Below, one piece after another: positions 4,610-12,444 of a DNA stretch of 64,000 nucleotides; the first letter of the stretch is position 1, and every line of letters begins with the position of its first letter. The notes below the pieces were generated by a model. That model saw only the letters and a program-made list of their open reading frames with translations, was not told the origin of the DNA and did not search any database. The position numbers and the translations under genes are program-made. The stretch comes from Verrucomicrobiales bacterium (GTDB lineage Bacteria > Verrucomicrobiota > Verrucomicrobiia > Verrucomicrobiales > DEV007), in NCBI GenBank assembly GCA_029210205.1, contig JARGOD010000003.1, positions 27,367-91,366 on the forward strand, read 5' to 3'.

Positions 4610-5145
4610 GATGAGTATAATTTTTAAACTTCCACTCAATTTATACGGTATTTTTATAATATCAATAGAAATTAGAAATAAATTTTAAATTATTGTCACT
4701 CGGCTGGAATATCCAGCGATACTCGAATATCAGTGATTGTGAGATCATCGTGGGCTCGGGATGCGCCTGAATGTTCCGATCCACTGTAGCTGGAGCGATC
4801 AAATAGATCCGCCACCTGAAGATTGGTGGCAGGACACACCGGGCGAATGGGAAGCCCCCGAGCTGCCGCTGGACGATGGCTATACCCTCGTTCTCGATGG
4901 AGACGACCCCCACGAACTCACAGACGTTCCCACGTTCTCCGAAGGCTGAAGGGAGATCCTCCCGTTTAGCGAAAAACAGCTTCCAGGGAAAGCTGCCGCA
5001 CTCATATGTCCGGCCCCCGCGATTTTTCGACCAAAACCCCACCATTTCATAGCGGTTCAGTAGATCCGCGGCGCACAGCCTTGACTCCAGCTTGTTTTCA
5101 TAGCCAAATCTCTTCATGAAGACAGGATTTCACCCTTTCTCCCCC
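4610..5145. other. Stretch without a convincing gene
   Basis: The A+T-rich start (4610-4690) is the likely promoter of the beta-barrel gene. Open frames exist on both strands between 4662 and 5117, but neither has a ribosome site, a recognisable domain or a plausible composition. A minus-strand frame of 151 codons and a short acidic plus-strand frame (4761-4949) overlap each other. This may be the decayed left flank of the repeat that begins at 5146. Confidence 0.35.
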
Positions 5146-5215
5146 TGCACCCCCTCAATCCCAGTAGGACCGATGCGCCGATAAGAACTCCTTGAAAAAG
5201 CAAAATCCAATCAGT
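5146..5215 (+). repeat. 70-bp dispersed repeat, copy 1
   Basis: First of four near-identical 70-bp copies, running from TGCACCCCCTCA to CCAATCAGT, all on the plus strand (others at 8836, 9875, 12375). It differs from copies 2 and 3 by one base (CAAAATCC for CAAATTCC). The right edge abuts, to the base, the remnant of a beta-propeller gene at 5216. No terminal inverted repeats or transposase are visible. Confidence 0.95.
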
Positions 5216-5290
5216 TATTCATCCATCGCAGTCTCTGACGGCGACCTTTTAATCCGCACCCACGAAGGACTCTGGTGTATATCCGAATAA
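5216..5290 (+). pseudogene. C-terminal remnant of a PQQ-like beta-propeller protein
   Basis: Starting at the first base after repeat copy 1, 25 codons read YSSIAVSDGDLLIRTHEGLW followed by CISE and a stop. The pattern SDGxLLIRTxxxLWCI is the final blade of PQQ/BamB-like propeller proteins common in Planctomycetes and Verrucomicrobia. Everything upstream of this blade is missing and has no start codon, so it is a broken gene. The stop lies 4 bp before the pectate lyase start, so its old transcript may once have read into that gene. Confidence 0.65.
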
Positions 5291-5294
5291 CCGA

Positions 5295-6707
5295 ATGAAA
5301 ATCCAACTTGCCCTTTTCGTCCCACTGATCGTTCTGTCAGCGGACGCTGCACCATCGGTCAACGAAGCGAAAAGCGCCATCGACCGAGCCGCAACCTTCT
5401 ACCGGGAGAAGGCCGCAGTTAACGGGGGCTATGTCTATTACTACTCACTCGATTTTTCACGACGGCTCGGAGAGGGCGTAGCCGAGAGCACCGAAATTTG
5501 GGTCCAGCCGCCCGGCACGCCGACAGTAGGAGAAGCATTTCTCGACGCCTACGAGGCGACAGGTTCTCGTGCTCATCTCGATTCTGCGATTGCGGCGGGA
5601 AAAGCGCTCGTTCACGGTCAAATCGAATCGGGAGGATGGCGCAACTCGGTCAATTTTAACCCTGCCGGAGCGAGAGCCGATCTCTATCGGAATGGGAAGG
5701 GAAACCCGAAAGGCAAAAATTTCAGCACCCTCGACGATGACATCACGCAAGCGGCATTGCGGTTCATGATGCGTCTTGATGAGACGCTGAAATTCGAGGA
5801 TGCCACGATTCATGAATCCGTGGAATACGCCACGACTCGGCTGCTACAGGCTCAATTCCCCAACGGAGCCTTCCCACAAGGATGGACGGGTCCAGTTGAA
5901 GCCCGCCCTCTCAAAGAGTCGCGCTACCCTGATTACGACTGGCGTACCGAAGGGCGTATCAAGCAGTACTGGGATGAATACACCTTAAACGATGGGCTTG
6001 CCGGAAGCATGACCGACATGTTGATCAGAGCGCATAAGATTTACAAAGATGACAAGTATCTCTCCGCGCTTGGGAAGCTCGGCGAGTTTCTCATCCTCTC
6101 GCAAATGCCCGATCCACAACCCGCTTGGGCGCAGCAATACGGACCCGATATGCAGCCGATTTGGGCGCGTGCTTTTGAACCGCCAGCGATAAGCGGTCGT
6201 GAGTCTGAAGACGTCATGATCTCCCTAATGAAGATCGCCGAATACACCGGCGAAGATCGCTTTCTGGAGCCGATCGTTCGCGGCGTAAAATACCTCGAAT
6301 CGTCTCTCTTACCCGATGGCCGACTGGCCCGCTATTACGAATTACAAAACAACAAGCCGCTCTACATGGAACGGAACGGCGTTGTCTATTCGCTGACCAA
6401 CGACGACTCGAATCTACCGAGTCACTACGGTTGGAAAAACCCATCACGGCTGGATCTAATCAAACAAGCCTATCGGGCAAAACTCGCCGGACGCAGTGCC
6501 GTCGCCGTGCTAGAACCCGCAATCGTCGATCCAGACGAAATAGAAGAGGTCGTCGACAACCTCGACGATGAAGGGCGCTGGATCAGCGAATACGATGGAG
6601 AGTTGCTTGTCGGCCAACCGAAATTCCAACCCGGCGAGAAGTATCTCAACAGCGCTGTGTTTGTCGAGAATATCGAGACGCTTAGACGCTTTGTGCTGAG
6701 TCGTTAG
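5295..6707 (+). CDS. Pectate lyase, PL10 family, secreted
   Basis: A signal peptide (about residues 1-19, LIVLSADAA) is followed by an alpha/alpha-barrel lyase of the PL10 type: [20 protein letters not shown] near residue 35, the hallmark [20 protein letters not shown] near 145, [15 protein letters not shown] near 195 and a late [12 protein letters not shown]. It would cleave polygalacturonate by beta-elimination outside the cytoplasm. Length (470 residues) is normal for this group. The start is the first ATG after the propeller remnant. It converges with the sulfatase gene across a strong hairpin. Confidence 0.85.
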
Positions 6708-6722
6708 TCACGACCGGACAGG

Positions 6723-6755
6723 CAACAGGGTCAGGTCGACCATTCAACCCTGTTG
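6723..6755. terminator. Hairpin between convergent genes
   Basis: A perfect 9-bp inverted repeat (CAACAGGGT at 6723-6731, ACCCTGTTG at 6747-6755) with a 15-nt loop lies between the stops of the pectate lyase and the sulfatase. There is no clear T-run on either side, so a bidirectional terminator is likely but not certain. Confidence 0.5.
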
Positions 6756-6762
6756 AATCGAA

Positions 6763-8226
6763 CTACTTGGCTGGCTTCTCCTTTTTCATATTCTGCAACC
6801 CATCCGACTCCCCGTAGAGCGGAGAATCTGAACCGCTGCTGCCGGGAACGGGATCGACGTTGGTTGTCGGAATCCACTGTTGAAAATCTTCAACCACATC
6901 GGCGTGCTTTCCGGCAGGGATCAGATTTGTGTGTTCGTTAGAATCATTGTGATGGTCGTAAAGTTCTTCACTGCCGTCGGCGTAGTGGCTGTAGCGGAAA
7001 TGCTCAGACCTCAGCGTGTGATTGTTGGGACCGAAGGTGGTGAGGGCGGGATAGGGCCATTCAGAATTGGGATTTTCCAAAAGCGGGGTGAGACTGCGGC
7101 CTTCGAGGCCCTCTGCTGTAGGCACGCCGCAAAGTTCCTCTAAGGTCGGCCAAACGTCGATCAGCCCGACCGGAGCATTGCTGTTGGCACCCTCGACAAT
7201 TCCAGGACCGGCGAAAATCAACGGGACGCGGGTGGTGCGCTCCCAGAGGCTGCGCTTAGCCCACTTCTTTTTTTCTCCGAGATGGAAACCGTGATCGCTC
7301 CAAAGAACGACGACTGTATTTTCCGCTTCGCCGGAATTTTCGAGCGAGTCGAGCATCATGCCAACTAAGGAGTCGATGAAAGAATTCGCGGCAAGGTAGG
7401 CGCGGACGAAATGGATGCCTTCACCGTGTTCTTTCATCCACGCATCGCGTGGGGCAGTGGGATTGAGCGAGAGTTGCACCGCGATCTCAGGCACATCGTC
7501 GAGGTCGTCCTCGGGCGCGGGCGGCATTTCGAGAGAGTCGAGCGGATAGAGATCGAACCACTTTTCCGAGGCATAGACGGGGACGTGTGGCAGAGAGAAG
7601 CCCACTGCCAAAAAGTAGGGTTCCTCTTTTTTCGCCAGTTCGGGTATTTGCTCGGCAGCCCACGCGGCGGTCTTGTAGTCACGCTGCTCTTCGTCGGGAA
7701 CATCGACTTCGCCCCAGTCCCACGCCGGGTGACTTCCGGGAAGCGTGAAGCGAAGTTTTTGCGGAGGCCGTTTCCAACCCGCAGTTGGCTCGATGTGATC
7801 GAACGAAGCGACGTCAGCTCTTCTATGGAAAATTTTCCCACGGGTTGAGGCGTAGTAACCGTTCTCGCGGAAGTGCTGAAACATCGTCTTGGCTTCCTTG
7901 GTGACTTCGACATCGCGGAATCCTGGAGCGAGAAAATAATGCCCAGTTGTCGACGGAAGTTTCCCGAGCAACATACTGACACGCGACGGATTGCAGATAG
8001 GCGCTTGACAATGTGCGTTGCGGAAATTGACACCGCTTTCGGCGAGCGCGTCGATGTGGGGAGTTTTTACCTGTGGATGTCCGTCGAGACAGCCGACAAA
8101 GTCGTTGAGATCGTCTATGGAGATGAAAAGCACGTTGGGAGGTTCGGCAGCATCCAACTCCGAGGCAAATGGAGGTATGGTCCATGCAATCAGTGCGAGA
8201 AATCGAATCGTTTTGGGAAAGTTCAT
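6763..8226 (-). CDS. Type I sulfatase, iduronate-2-sulfatase-like, secreted
   Basis: A signal peptide (about residues 1-26) precedes the alkaline-phosphatase-like sulfatase core. Metal ligands appear in FISIDDLNDF (Asp38, Asp39), and the FGly signature CNPSR begins at Cys78, which a formylglycine-generating enzyme elsewhere would oxidise. Later come the family segments LPHVPVYAS and LWSDHGFHLGEKKKW. Sequence around the active site and the length (487 residues) fit the S1_7/iduronate-sulfatase-like branch; the real substrate is probably a sulfated algal or host glycan. No FGly enzyme is encoded in the window. Confidence 0.9.
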   Translation of the reverse strand: MNFPKTIRFLALIAWTIPPFASELDAAEPPNVLFISIDDLNDFVGCLDGHPQVKTPHIDALAESGVNFRNAHCQAPICNPSRVSMLLGKLPSTTGHYFLAPGFRDVEVTKEAKTMFQHFRENGYYASTRGKIFHRRADVASFDHIEPTAGWKRPPQKLRFTLPGSHPAWDWGEVDVPDEEQRDYKTAAWAAEQIPELAKKEEPYFLAVGFSLPHVPVYASEKWFDLYPLDSLEMPPAPEDDLDDVPEIAVQLSLNPTAPRDAWMKEHGEGIHFVRAYLAANSFIDSLVGMMLDSLENSGEAENTVVVLWSDHGFHLGEKKKWAKRSLWERTTRVPLIFAGPGIVEGANSNAPVGLIDVWPTLEELCGVPTAEGLEGRSLTPLLENPNSEWPYPALTTFGPNNHTLRSEHFRYSHYADGSEELYDHHNDSNEHTNLIPAGKHADVVEDFQQWIPTTNVDPVPGSSGSDSPLYGESDGLQNMKKEKPAK

Positions 8227-8376
8227 GGGGAAGAGATGGCAATGCTCTCATGTTCCAAGCTGAATAACAACCTGCCTACGTCGGGAGCGAACCTGTCGCG
8301 ATGTGTGAGTCTCGAAGTTTCGTGATTCTCAACTGGGGCGCTCGCCGCCCGTTGATCAGGCGGTGGATAATTTCAC

Positions 8377-8815
8377 TTACAAAGAATTGATTCTCTTTTT
8401 GAAGATTTTGAGTTTTTTCATCAACTGTTTCTTTTTGGATTTGCTCTTGGTTCTCTTAAGGCTCTTTTTCAGTCTTTTGTATTTCTTCGTGAGGGCCGTC
8501 TTGAGCACGTTCGTGACTGCGGCGTCCCTCGCCGAGGCTGCCGTGGTGAAATTAACCTGTGGGCCGTAGCCCGTGCCCGCGCTGTTTATGGCGTAGGAGC
8601 GGACGTAGTAGGTTGTGGAAGGAGAAAGGCCAGTGAGGATGTCGGAGAAGACTCCAGTGCCGCTCCCGGAGACGGCCTTGGCTCCACTGGCCGTTGACGG
8701 GGTCGGGAAGGTGGAGATGACTACTCCGCCGTCGTCGGTGACTTCGCCGCCCACCAGAGCTGAACTCGTCGTGACGCCTGATATGGCCGCGGTCGTGACC
8801 ACAGGTGGGTCAATC
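8377..8815 (-). pseudogene. C-terminal fragment of an FN3-repeat surface protein
   Basis: On the minus strand the frame opens after a stop at 8816 with TIDPPVVTTAAISGVTTSSA and carries one fibronectin-III-like repeat (LTGLSPSTTYYVRSYAINSA) of the type tandemly repeated in large secreted proteins. It ends in a highly basic tail (KKYKRLKKSLKRTKSKSKKK). There is no start codon or signal peptide; the stretch between it and repeat copy 2 is out of frame. It looks like the tail of a much larger gene whose middle was lost at the repeat. Confidence 0.65.
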
Positions 8816-8835
8816 GTTTACGTGAACCCGAAAGT

Positions 8836-8905
8836 TGCACCCCCTCAATCCCAGTAGGACCGATGCGCCGATAAGAACTCCTTGAAAAAGCAAATTCCAA
8901 TCAGT
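8836..8905 (+). repeat. 70-bp dispersed repeat, copy 2
   Basis: Identical in sequence to copy 3 and same orientation as the other three copies. It lies between a decayed signal-peptide sequence (minus strand, 8901-9011) and a decayed FN3-repeat C-terminus (minus strand, 8377-8815), as if it marks the joint of a deletion within one gene. Confidence 0.95.
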
Positions 8906-9011
8906 CGTTGGGAGACTGCGTGTCGCGGGCGTCGACTGTCGAGCTGAGCCAAAAGAGTGAGAGTAGTGTCAGCGTGCGCGGTAGGAAGTAGCGAGGAGTT
9001 TTGTTAATTAT
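8901..9011 (-). pseudogene. Decayed signal-peptide N-terminus ending in repeat copy 2
   Basis: Minus-strand codons read IINKTPRYF, LPRTLTLLSLFWLSS, TVDARDTQSPND and then stop where the repeat begins (TGA at 8901-8903). This has the basic start, hydrophobic core and small-residue cleavage region of a secretion signal. No ATG, GTG or TTG is in frame; ATA or ATT at 9011/9008 may be a mutated start. Together with the FN3 fragment on the other side of the repeat it can be read as the two ends of one former gene. Confidence 0.5.
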
Positions 9012-9057
9012 GTTAGAGTATCTCGTGCCCGCTTAGGGTGAGGAGGTTCTGCTCAGG

Positions 9058-9828
9058 TCAGGGTAACTGATCGACGGTAAAAAAAGGTAAATTGAGTGCC
9101 TTGGCTTTTTTGAGAACGTGCTCGAGTGCTGATGGTGTGATAAAATTTCCTTTCCCTATCGGCGTGATTTGGTGGGCATACAGCGTTAATATCTCGCGGT
9201 TTTGCGCCGCTCTCGTCAAAGCGGCATCAATCTTTTCGAACGAGCGGTCGTCGCGGACTGGAGCGAAATCGATCCCTTTTCCGAAGAGGAGCCCTGTCTC
9301 TTTGATCTTTTCCACAGGAACGAAGAACTCGTCGTAGTCGATGATTCCGCGCTGAGAATCGATGCCTTTGCCGGTGCGAAGGTGGCGGAAGATTTTTAAT
9401 AGCTCTTTGTCTGTCTCGGGGTGATTTCGGCTCATCGGATACGCGAAGGCCGTCGGTGTGATGCCAGCTGCCCTGAAGGCAATCATCTGCGGCTCAATTT
9501 CATTTTTAACGAAGTCTGCAGCAGTGTGATCCTCGAGGTACTTGATCGCGCTGAGGTGATGGACGCTGTGCGAGCCAATCGCGTGGCCATGCTGTTTGAG
9601 CTCAAGTGCGGTTGCTATTGCTTTTTCATCGATCGCCCCACTGATGAAGAAGGTGGCATTGGCGTGATACTTTTCAAAAAGGGGAATTGCAGCGAGCCAG
9701 TCGTCGAAATTCCGGTCGTCGAAAGTTAATACGACTCCGCCACTTTTAAGAGGAGCGGGTAAGTCTTCGGAATACGCAGCGGTTCCGAAAATTAACAACG
9801 CGACGAGGCTTAGTATTACTGATTTCAC
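9058..9828 (-). CDS. Polysaccharide deacetylase (NodB/CE4-like), secreted
   Basis: A GTG start at 9828 is preceded by an AGG box and gives a signal peptide (KSVILSLVALLIFGTAAYSE). Longer frames begin inside repeat copy 3 and are unlikely. The NodB core shows the catalytic pair in VVLTFDDRNFDDW, then ATFFISG, the metal-binding GSHSVHHLS and AFAYPMSRNHPETD; the last motif, LTLYAHQI, is in place of the usual RxW/LH region. It probably removes acetyl groups from an extracellular glycan. About 257 residues, single domain. Confidence 0.8.
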   Translation of the reverse strand: MKSVILSLVALLIFGTAAYSEDLPAPLKSGGVVLTFDDRNFDDWLAAIPLFEKYHANATFFISGAIDEKAIATALELKQHGHAIGSHSVHHLSAIKYLEDHTAADFVKNEIEPQMIAFRAAGITPTAFAYPMSRNHPETDKELLKIFRHLRTGKGIDSQRGIIDYDEFFVPVEKIKETGLLFGKGIDFAPVRDDRSFEKIDAALTRAAQNREILTLYAHQITPIGKGNFITPSALEHVLKKAKALNLPFFTVDQLP

Positions 9829-9874
9829 TACCTGAGCGTATTCGCCTCGCGCCTGCATGGCAAAGACGGAATGT

Positions 9875-9944
9875 TGCACCCCCTCAATCCCAGTAGGACC
9901 GATGCGCCGATAAGAACTCCTTGAAAAAGCAAATTCCAATCAGT
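9875..9944 (+). repeat. 70-bp dispersed repeat, copy 3
   Basis: Same 70 bp as copy 2. Its right edge cuts a methyltransferase N-terminus (minus strand, 9945-10099); its left edge lies 47 bp upstream of the deacetylase start. A minus-strand frame through the repeat (EFAFSRSSYRRIGPTG) fuses to the deacetylase frame but is probably not translated. Confidence 0.95.
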
Positions 9945-10099
9945 CGGCCATCTCCATCTCCGGCGACTAGAACGCTAGCCGTTTGAGGAAGGACCGACAC
10001 AATTGTGTCGAGGTGAGCTACCCGCGCGCGGTGAAGGCTTCCTCCGAAAACAACCTTTTCCAAAATGGCGTAAATGGGAGCAATGAAGCTGAAGTCCAT
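9945..10099 (-). pseudogene. N-terminal fragment of a SAM-dependent methyltransferase
   Basis: From an ATG at 10099 the frame reads MDFSFIAPIYAILEKVVF, then GGSLHRARVAHLD and VSVLPQTASVLVAGDGDGR, i.e. the start of a class I methyltransferase up to motif I (GxGxG). The gene stops being recognisable exactly where repeat copy 3 begins; reading continues 20 codons through the repeat to a stop. The rest of the domain is absent from the window, so the fragment cannot be active. Confidence 0.65.
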
Positions 10100-10292
10100 G
10101 AGTTCGATTACACGAAACTGAGAAGGTCGGCAGCGTCGATTTTCGAGTAAATGCACATTAATCCTCCTTCGGGGGATGAAAAACTTGTGCGAGTCATCTG
10201 GAAAAGCCGGCATCCTAGGAGCCATTTTATTAGATTATCGCTTTGATCTTCCGCGTTATTCCGGCAACTTCAGCCGATTTTACTGGAGCACT

Positions 10293-10913
10293 ATGAACGA
10301 TTTTTTCTCACAGATTGTCGCCGTATTTCTGGGCTTCTTTGCAGTGATGAATCCCATCGCGAATACTGCGGCTTTCGCTGGTCTGGTTGGTGATAGAAGC
10401 AAGACCGAGCAGATGAAGGTAGCCTGCAAAGCGATCGTGATCACATTTTTCGTGATTATAGCGTTCGCTTTTCTGGGGAAAGCCATTTTTCACCTATTTG
10501 GCATTACGCTATCCGCTCTGAGAATCACGGGTGGGATTCTCGTATTTCTTATCGGATACCACATGCTGAATGGCAGTGGTTCAAAACTGCATTCCTCCGA
10601 GCTGGGAAAAGAAGAGGTGAAAGACGTGGCAATTTCTCCACTGGCGGTCCCGCTCCTCGCCGGACCTGGGACCATCGCGACAGCAATGAATTTCGCCTCT
10701 ACCCAAGGCTTCACCGGGATATTGGTCACCATCTCCGTATTTGCCGTCTTGTGTCTTATCACTTTCGTCTGCTTTGTCTACAGTTCGAGCATCTTAAAGC
10801 TATTGGGACAAAGCGGCTTAGGAATCATCACTCGACTCATGGGGCTAATCCTAGCCGTGATAGGCACGCAAATGTTGATCACGGGTGTTACCGATGTGGT
10901 AAAATCGATGTAG
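10293..10913 (+). CDS. MarC-family (UPF0056) integral membrane protein
   Basis: The ATG at 10293 has GGAG six bases upstream and starts directly before the first membrane helix; the open frame extends 39 codons further but without sense. The 206-residue product has six predicted helices and family motifs: FLGFFAVMNPIANTAAF, LRITGGILVFLIGYHML, and ISPLAVPLLAGPGTIATAMN. MarC proteins are inner-membrane proteins of unknown substrate, once linked to antibiotic resistance in error. It converges with the lipase-like gene. Confidence 0.85.
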   Translation: MNDFFSQIVAVFLGFFAVMNPIANTAAFAGLVGDRSKTEQMKVACKAIVITFFVIIAFAFLGKAIFHLFGITLSALRITGGILVFLIGYHMLNGSGSKLHSSELGKEEVKDVAISPLAVPLLAGPGTIATAMNFASTQGFTGILVTISVFAVLCLITFVCFVYSSSILKLLGQSGLGIITRLMGLILAVIGTQMLITGVTDVVKSM

Positions 10914-10963
10914 GGATAAATCGGTTCGTGCGCGAGCTGAATCGCGCCGTCGATCATTTTTGG

Positions 10964-10988
10964 TCGAAACTTCTTTCGTGAAGTTTTC
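10964..10988. terminator. Short hairpin between convergent genes
   Basis: AAACTTC (10966-10972) pairs with GAAGTTT (10979-10985) across a 6-nt loop. It lies between the MarC stop and the lipase-like stop. T-run on either side is poor, so termination is only a possibility. Confidence 0.3.
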
Positions 10989-11010
10989 GAGTCCTTTACG
11001 CCTCCTGCTG

Positions 11011-12255
11011 TCAGGGGCTGATTGCATCAGCCATATCCAGTTCGGCTATGGGAATGCATGACTCGCAGGGGTAGTTCACGCCTTTGAACCGAATAAACGC
11101 CAAATTTCGTTTCCGCAGATTGGAGATCATATCTTTCTCGCTCAAAATTCCTGAATCGTTCAAGAGCAGCTCCTGCACCAGATGAATTCCCTCGGGGTCC
11201 TGATTATTAGCGTGGTGTGAGAAGATTCCAACTTCGCAGACTGCGCCTGGTAAATAAGTGCTTCCGGGTGTGACAAAACCATCCCCACGCTCTGGCCGCT
11301 TCGGGTTCTTTATCGCTGGCACTGTATGAAACGTAACCGCAGGATCAATCGGAAGGTTCGCTTGAACCTTTGTTACAGGTGAATCAGGGCGCAAGGTCGA
11401 TACCGCGTTCACTTTGTGCGCTAGGAAACGGTGAAAAGCGGGCTGAAGAAGATCAGAGTTCTTTTTCAATAAAGCGCCGGATAGATCCACCACCGATTCC
11501 GGGCGAGCAGACAACTCCGTCCCCAACCAGCCGGTAAAGCCATACGCCAACTTGCTTCCACGATGTGGGGTCGCCATGAAGATTACTTTTTTCACGTAAT
11601 CCCTAGGCTTGTAACGAAAAGCTTCACTCATCAACTGACGCTCGGCGGGAGTCAGTTCGAAGTCTTCGATAGGCGCCGTGTAGGCGGCGTCCCAAAGGGC
11701 ATCCCCTGTGTCGGAGACCAATGATTTGGCGAGAATTCCGCCCATGCTGTGGCCGATCACAATCAGTTTCCGATTCAGTGAAATCCCGAAGGTCTTCTCA
11801 ATTTTCTTCACGCTTTCATCAAGCTCCCGCTTCATAACCGCAGCCGCCGGCACTGTTGGAGTGCCTGAAGGATAGGCATAAAAGAGAAACTGGAAGTGCT
11901 TTTCTACGTCAGGATTGGCCCGCAACCCTGCCACCATTGCGTCCCAGGTATCTGGATCGGATATGAGGCCATGGATCAATAAAACTGGGGTCTTTGAAGG
12001 ATCATATTGGTCCACCATGAATATTCCGCTTCGGGACTCAGCAAGCTCTGCATTCTCAAACCCCTTGAATCCTGTTCTTGTATCTACCAAATTGCCGATC
12101 GATGCATGAAGTCGGTCATCGAGCCGGGCCAAGGAAAGAGGGGGCGGCGCCGTCTTGCAACCGACAACAAAAATACCGACAAGAAGCGCTGCCAAGATTC
12201 CGCGAAAATTCTCTCGTTTCAGAAGTTTGAAAAAGTTTTCTCCACCAAGAATCAT
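11011..12255 (-). CDS. Alpha/beta-hydrolase lipoprotein (lipase/PGAP1-like)
   Basis: The first ATG gives a lipoprotein signal with lipobox VVGC near residue 33. The hydrolase core has the oxyanion segment PVLLIHGLISDPDTW, the nucleophile elbow VIGHSMGGILAKSL (catalytic Ser), FMATPHRGSKLA and a late GIFSHHANNQDPEGI that probably carries the catalytic His; an acidic residue in RGDGFVTPGS is the likely third member. It should act on an ester in the periplasm or at the outer membrane; the substrate is unknown. About 119 bp upstream lies repeat copy 4. Confidence 0.75.
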   Translation of the reverse strand: MILGGENFFKLLKRENFRGILAALLVGIFVVGCKTAPPPLSLARLDDRLHASIGNLVDTRTGFKGFENAELAESRSGIFMVDQYDPSKTPVLLIHGLISDPDTWDAMVAGLRANPDVEKHFQFLFYAYPSGTPTVPAAAVMKRELDESVKKIEKTFGISLNRKLIVIGHSMGGILAKSLVSDTGDALWDAAYTAPIEDFELTPAERQLMSEAFRYKPRDYVKKVIFMATPHRGSKLAYGFTGWLGTELSARPESVVDLSGALLKKNSDLLQPAFHRFLAHKVNAVSTLRPDSPVTKVQANLPIDPAVTFHTVPAIKNPKRPERGDGFVTPGSTYLPGAVCEVGIFSHHANNQDPEGIHLVQELLLNDSGILSEKDMISNLRKRNLAFIRFKGVNYPCESCIPIAELDMADAISP

Positions 12256-12318
12256 GGCTCAAATTGGAACGGCATCGCCATTTTGCAAGGGAATCGGCTT
12301 GTTCGCGATGAGTGGAAT

Positions 12319-12372
12319 TCAGGCAACGCGAACGCCACTGTAATCGGGAGCATCCACTACGTCTCGTAATAC
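12319..12372 (-). pseudogene. Possible C-terminal remnant next to repeat copy 4
   Basis: Two bases past the repeat, minus-strand codons read VLRDVVDAPDYSGVRVA and stop. The composition looks like a real protein end and there is no start codon, so it resembles the broken ends seen at the other repeat copies. It is too short to name a family. Confidence 0.3.
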
Positions 12373-12374
12373 TC

Positions 12375-12444
12375 TGCACCCCCTCAAACCCAGTAGGACC
12401 GATGCGCCGATAAGAACTCCTTGAAAAAGCAAATTCCAATCAGT
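12375..12444 (+). repeat. 70-bp dispersed repeat, copy 4
   Basis: Same length and orientation as the other copies, with one base difference (CTCAAACCC for CTCAATCCC). It is the last copy in the window and marks the right end of the accessory region. Confidence 0.95.

Follow-up and report, generated by a model that had tools for sequence, protein, structure and literature searches.

A 70-bp repeat in Verrucomicrobiales is the terminal end of an IS91/ISCR-like transposon and marks gene breaks at several of its copies

The 70-bp repeat described here comes from an IS91/ISCR-like rolling-circle transposon, where it forms the last ~70 bp of the end that follows the transposase gene on its 3′ side. 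Solo copies of this end arose separately in several lineages, and gene breakage is demonstrated for several copies, not for all of them. The copies are probably non-autonomous oriIS-end miniatures that come from one-ended rolling-circle transposition, a process that would sometimes capture or delete adjacent DNA. Several copies mark the exact cut of a gene or of a transferred block, and therefore the copies flag sites of gene shuffling.

The window, which is the whole stretch of 64,000 nucleotides that was analysed, carries four copies of the repeat in the same orientation (Table 1), each at most one base off the consensus, as a sequence-only reading of this DNA had stated. Copies 2 and 3 are identical, and copies 1 and 4 have one base different each. 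Dinucleotide shuffles gave an expectation of 0 matches for the 33-bp core, even with 3 mismatches. The copies in the window were confirmed to have no terminal inverted repeats, and neither these nor a target duplication was seen at solo copies or at full elements. The repeat is thus not a MITE of the TIR type, in line with the sequence-only reading. Copy 1 is longer than 70 bp: its leftward homology to other copies, which that reading had overlooked, reaches about position 4763.

Table 1. Features of the window around the four copies of the 70-bp repeat.
Feature	Position	Strand	Remark
IS91/ISCR-like transposase, C-terminal remnant (LNVPIHCSWSDQIDPPPEDWWQDTPGEWEAPELPLDDGYTLVLDGDDPHELTDVPTFSEG*)	4763..4949	+	C-terminus as in the intact L073/L099 transposase; DNA homology to other long copies begins here
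Sub-terminal 3′ non-coding part of the transposon, joined to copy 1	4950..5145	+	72-92% identity to the left flank of the repeat in long copies of other species
Copy 1 of the 70-bp oriIS-side end	5146-5215	+	Sequence match; right edge cuts the PQQ gene
PQQ-propeller gene, last 24 codons, cut off by the right edge of copy 1	5216..5290	+	Intact directly upstream of the pectate lyase gene in at least 8 relatives
Pectate-lyase-like gene, intact	5295..6707	+	PF09492; common in the genus; served as synteny anchor
Sulfatase gene, between copies 1 and 2	6763..8226	-	PF00884, E = 2.4e-36
FN3-like secreted-protein fragment, left of copy 2	8377..8802	-	Weak fn3 match
Copy 2 of the 70-bp end	8836-8905	+	Sequence match
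Polysaccharide deacetylase gene, apparently intact, between copies 2 and 3	9058..9858	-	PF01522, E = 3.9e-14
Copy 3 of the 70-bp end	9875-9944	+	Sequence match
ORF, possible methyltransferase N-terminus, running into copy 3	9884..10225	-	No Pfam match
MarC-family gene, between copies 3 and 4	10176..10913	+	PF01914, E = 6.7e-52
Alpha/beta hydrolase gene, between copies 3 and 4	11011..12255	-	PGAP1, E = 1.3e-6
Copy 4 of the 70-bp end	12375-12444	+	Sequence match

The parent transposon

The sequence to the left of copy 1 encodes the C-terminus of a protein that is intact as a transposase at two loci of the relative G004 (L073 and L099). This transposase has the domains Y2_Tnp (PF04986, E = 2.1e-23) and Zn_Tnp_IS91 (PF14319, E = 4.9e-15). 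Full-length elements were found in G004, G014 (three), G020, G024 and G032. All of them end in homologues of the 70-mer, with this end about 200 bp past the transposase stop. The earlier opinion that the repeat does not look like a known IS is not supported, since an IS91/ISCR-type element has this sequence as its 3′ end. In public records, the parent element occurs in Verrucomicrobiales/Akkermansiaceae MAGs.

The HUH motif FHPH[LI]H is conserved in the parent transposase, and its motif III holds one tyrosine (AEY[LM]LRAPF). ISCR transposases also have one motif-III tyrosine. Two are present in another IS91-type transposase, L110 of G007 (YLGAY), and IS91 itself has two, Y249 and Y253 (PMC5714925). 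Because of its single motif-III tyrosine, the parent is called IS91/ISCR-like here and not a canonical two-tyrosine IS91. In G014, the left end of the element (terIS side) carries a 12-bp hairpin with perfect pairing ahead of the start codon (z -7.8). Single-strand folding, a check proposed by the sequence-only reading, did not support a conserved oriIS hairpin in the 70-mer, whose folding did not surpass that of shuffled sequence (z 0.75). A candidate CAACCC/GGGTTG stem is paired in 72% of cells and shows no covariation.

Two other identifications were tried and rejected. The minus-strand ORF at 4662-5117, beside copy 1, was considered as a linked recombinase, but it runs antisense to the remnant of the transposase and gave no match in Pfam. 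The 70-mer was considered as a coding relic, its hydrophobic minus-strand reading resembling the C-terminus of an ABC permease, and this was abandoned once the full element was found. A second small repeat (translation roughly NRRRF.RRRAERSETDCRQAARRASEAKSTRS) interrupts the genes of this transposase family in several species; it was seen in L055 and L065, shortly before the C-terminus of the transposase.

The MAG from which the window comes is 4.9 Mb in 195 contigs and 86.6% complete. The search of the whole genome and of relatives for the 70-mer found only the four copies of the window in this MAG and many in congeners. No intact transposase gene was detected in the MAG, and a degenerate transposase remnant of ~60 codons lies on its contig C48, apart from the window copies. 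Since this MAG retains only a decayed transposase remnant, its copies are probably either inactive scars or the product of a transposase that has since been lost or was not assembled.

Solo copies, their edges and their distribution

Congeneric species hold abundant related copies, with identities down to ~75-80%, and such copies are essentially absent outside the genus, which comprises uncultured Verrucomicrobiales. Some genomes hold tens of copies. Exact 23-mer scans of GTDB and IMG/VR gave no match. The copies within one genome are often nearly identical and clustered. In the fetched loci, 34/43 neighbouring pairs have the same orientation (p = 1.7e-4, with pairs that are not fully independent), and the median spacing is 2.0 kb.

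Solo copies lie near a full element in four lineages that are independent of one another. In G032, two solo copies follow the full element at 1.0 kb and 1.3 kb; they match its final 70 bp at 100% and 98.6% identity, and both begin exactly at TGCACCCC. An element with nearby solos, each with its lineage's own sequence, was also found in Ww561, G014 (in tandem) and the more distant AE_MB128 (three solos). Across these four lineages, the solos are 98.6-100% identical to the last ~70 bp of the local element and have the same start point.

The right edge of the copies is fixed (..AATTCCnATCARt). On the left, most copies begin at a single preferred point, TGCACCCC, with the variants TGAAC/TGGAC. An exact left edge (TG[CAG]A start) was found in 44/56 distinct copies, and 43/44 of these have a pyrimidine at position -1. 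Past the right edge, the copies showed a weak preference for A/C/T followed by R, and no conserved target tetranucleotide was found beyond such weak preferences. Longer copies share the common right end and are cut on the left at varying points. Their left edges have no clear consensus tetranucleotide, and for this reason the longer copies may be ordinary rearrangements. Tandem duplications of the element's final 13-30 bp are frequent at the right edge (L193 4785-4815, L194 4722-4763, L045 4702-4730 and L038 10110), as if the end were a preferred target.

Gene breaks at the copies and their possible origin

The propeller C-terminus said to follow copy 1 without a gap does exist (24 codons, 5216-5290), and a check of this gene in relatives found it complete directly upstream of the pectate lyase gene in at least 8 of them. 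Another PQQ gene of the same genome (contig C133) was rejected as the source of the window fragment: it matches the fragment at 84% over 38 bp only and is a diverged orthologue or paralogue. PQQ-propeller-like matches number at least 20 in this genome, which makes the family unusually large. Two further fragments had been reported from the sequence alone. The FN3 fragment by copy 2 is weakly supported (fn3 E = 0.012, below the cut-off), and a signal-peptide fragment beside the same copy is plausible by eye. As for the methyltransferase described as ending at copy 3, an ORF does enter this copy, but it has no Pfam match to confirm the identity. The MarC-family gene of the window is present in only 3/33 congeners.

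Breaks were also found in other genomes. To the right of the copy at L039 of G004, homology to most relatives sets in 1-2 bp past the copy edge, as seen at seven places. The reading frame of the broken gene runs at least 259 aa beyond the break in G025, and the missing part was not found elsewhere in the locus. At L034 of G023, a 532-bp fragment that is 95.5% identical to G005 contains a kinase-like gene's tail and an EamA-like gene's head. Both genes are intact in G005. In G023, the fragment is interrupted where two copies in inverted orientation have their left edges, with a 2-bp offset on one side.

A larger segment is shared by two species. The block of 8.45 kb in G025 (G025:C133, L185:9775-18218) is 94.4% identical to one in G005 (G005:C201, L184:1748-10196), whereas the two genomes are 67% identical at the pectate-lyase locus. 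It holds three large same-strand genes, and the host species are otherwise ~67-73% identical. In G025, copies lie within 51 bp and 32 bp of the borders, and weak homology on the left side appears to reach the copy edge. In G005, there is no full copy at the borders; an ori-like end was seen by eye beside one of them.

The suggestion that the repeat is tied to a process that cuts and moves gene segments therefore holds for these breakpoints of genes and of segments shared by lateral transfer, but not in general. Undisturbed intergenic DNA also houses the repeat: many copies sit between intact genes and several at breaks. A search for an empty site at L042, L039 and the window copies found none, no relative keeping both flanks of a solo copy together, so a single transposition step was never seen cleanly.

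We propose the following course for one-ended transposition. Rolling-circle displacement would start with a nick at the right end of the element, and its normal stop would be the hairpin-bearing left end. Here it would often terminate early, at a ter-like site 70 nt in, and leave a miniature copy with oriIS kept; a transposase acting in trans may reuse such solo origins. Events from solo origins that end at chance terminators in neighbouring DNA would copy or delete segments. Genes would come to end at the repeat through such runs.

The chief rival, which we judge possible but unlikely, is that MITE-like 70-bp units insert cleanly in trans and that the breaks and borders form later by homologous recombination or deletion between dispersed copies. 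It agrees with the two edges being fixed in most copies, with the many copies between intact genes and near start codons, and with the existence of tandem and inverted pairs. In P. syringae, moreover, IS801 fragments are mostly ascribed to reorganisation, and direct copies of MITEPsy2 recombine often (PMC3189936, PMC6354349). However, it predicts that both flanks are pieces of other copy-flanked loci, and no rest-of-gene partner was found at copy 1 or L039. The 8.45-kb block, lacking full copies at its borders in G005, also argues against it. One-ended transposition and 70-bp insertion with homologous recombination may both be operating.

It is quite unlikely that the ~70-bp end is by itself a minimal rolling-circle unit with two ends, an origin and its own terminator, and that the DNA between neighbouring same-orientation copies is a cassette mobile through a transposase in trans. 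If this were true, these Verrucomicrobiales would have a HUH-based, integron-like gene-shuffling platform.

It is highly improbable that the copies form an integron-like array of gene cassettes in which a tyrosine recombinase moves an attC-like site. The clusters of mostly one orientation with their 2.0-kb median spacing recall such an array, and some gene-copy-gene units resemble cassettes. The 70-mer, however, has no attC-like hairpin and derives from the end of a rolling-circle IS, which bears out the earlier view that it is not an integron attC site, and the segments range from 0.2 to >5 kb with mixed gene orientations inside.

We give very little credit to the idea that copies of the repeat regulate the genes downstream of them, as a promoter, a leader RNA or a riboswitch. 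The right edge is indeed within 60 bp upstream of a same-strand start codon in 22/77 copies, and one copy in G032 lies 1 bp ahead of a DUF1552 gene; ISCR1 ends are described as carrying outward promoters (PMC6218425). Against this, there was no Rfam match at E up to 0.1 and no conserved structure, other copies adjoin gene fragments or gene 3′ ends (one sits at the very end of a gene), and the transposon origin accounts for the repeat. The repeat could act secondarily as a promoter.

Misjoining of contigs through a short high-copy repeat is hardly credible as a general explanation: several copies do lie at MAG contig ends, but copies are also interior to contigs >100 kb (G004:C81, G025:C133, G021:C47), and the same anatomy is repeated in independent assemblies. 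Some individual joins could be chimeric. A 4,703-bp contig is 100% identical in G025 and G027 (L036, G025:C139:53-4755; L052, the whole of G027:C146), though these genomes are ~69-70% identical at the pectate-lyase locus, and this reflects either very recent transfer or mis-binning.

Comparison with known systems

IS91/ISCR-type elements move resistance and virulence genes, and the evidence on how they acquire neighbouring DNA is mostly circumstantial. The present copies form a natural system with tens of minimal fixed-border ends, independent replicates in sister species and base-resolved breakpoints. For these reasons it is a good test system for where rolling-circle transposition starts and stops and how frequently it carries or deletes genes. 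It is also a warning for annotation, as a tiny TIR-less repeat can be the footprint of a rolling-circle element. In the open-access papers searched, no description of such elements in Verrucomicrobia was found.

Eukaryotic helitrons likewise have no TIRs or target duplication, form truncated copies and transduce fragments of flanking genes (PMC4778049, PMC5714925). Unlike them, the present element is bacterial and has a transposase gene of ~1.5 kb without a helicase; the likeness is taken as an analogy only. With ISCR elements it shares the HUH transposase, the distinct oriIS and terIS ends and the mobilisation of adjacent genes. It differs in its Verrucomicrobiales host and in having segments bounded by solo ori ends instead of full ISCR copies.

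IS801, an IS91-family element of Pseudomonas syringae, provides an experimental precedent for the proposed steps, namely one-ended miniatures, mobilisation of adjacent DNA and deletions from ori. Its miniatures have an intact right terminus, a left end inside the element at GAAC/GGAC/CAAG/CGAC/GCAC and no TIRs, and IS801 also mobilises adjacent DNA (PMC3189936, PMC6354349). Right-end fragments of 229, 360 and 679 nt are known, one of them starting at GCAC (PMC3189936), and IS801 deletions start at ori801 (PMC6354349). The solo copies are alike in their intact right end, their left end within the element at a ter-like tetranucleotide and their lack of TIRs. Their left edges TGCAC/TGGAC/TGAAC contain GCAC/GGAC/GAAC, which are reported for left ends of IS801 miniatures or as targets of IS801 (PMC3189936). 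They differ in being ~70 bp instead of 229-679 nt. As judged from the sequences, they also appear to differ in that the same left edge recurs in several independent lineages, that some genomes hold tens of copies and that these form same-orientation clusters. One-ended miniatures of the IS91 family and ISCR-type mobilisation are a class already known. Within it, a ~70-bp solo end whose borders are fixed, which recurs independently and which reaches high copy numbers in same-orientation clusters, is apparently an undescribed variant.
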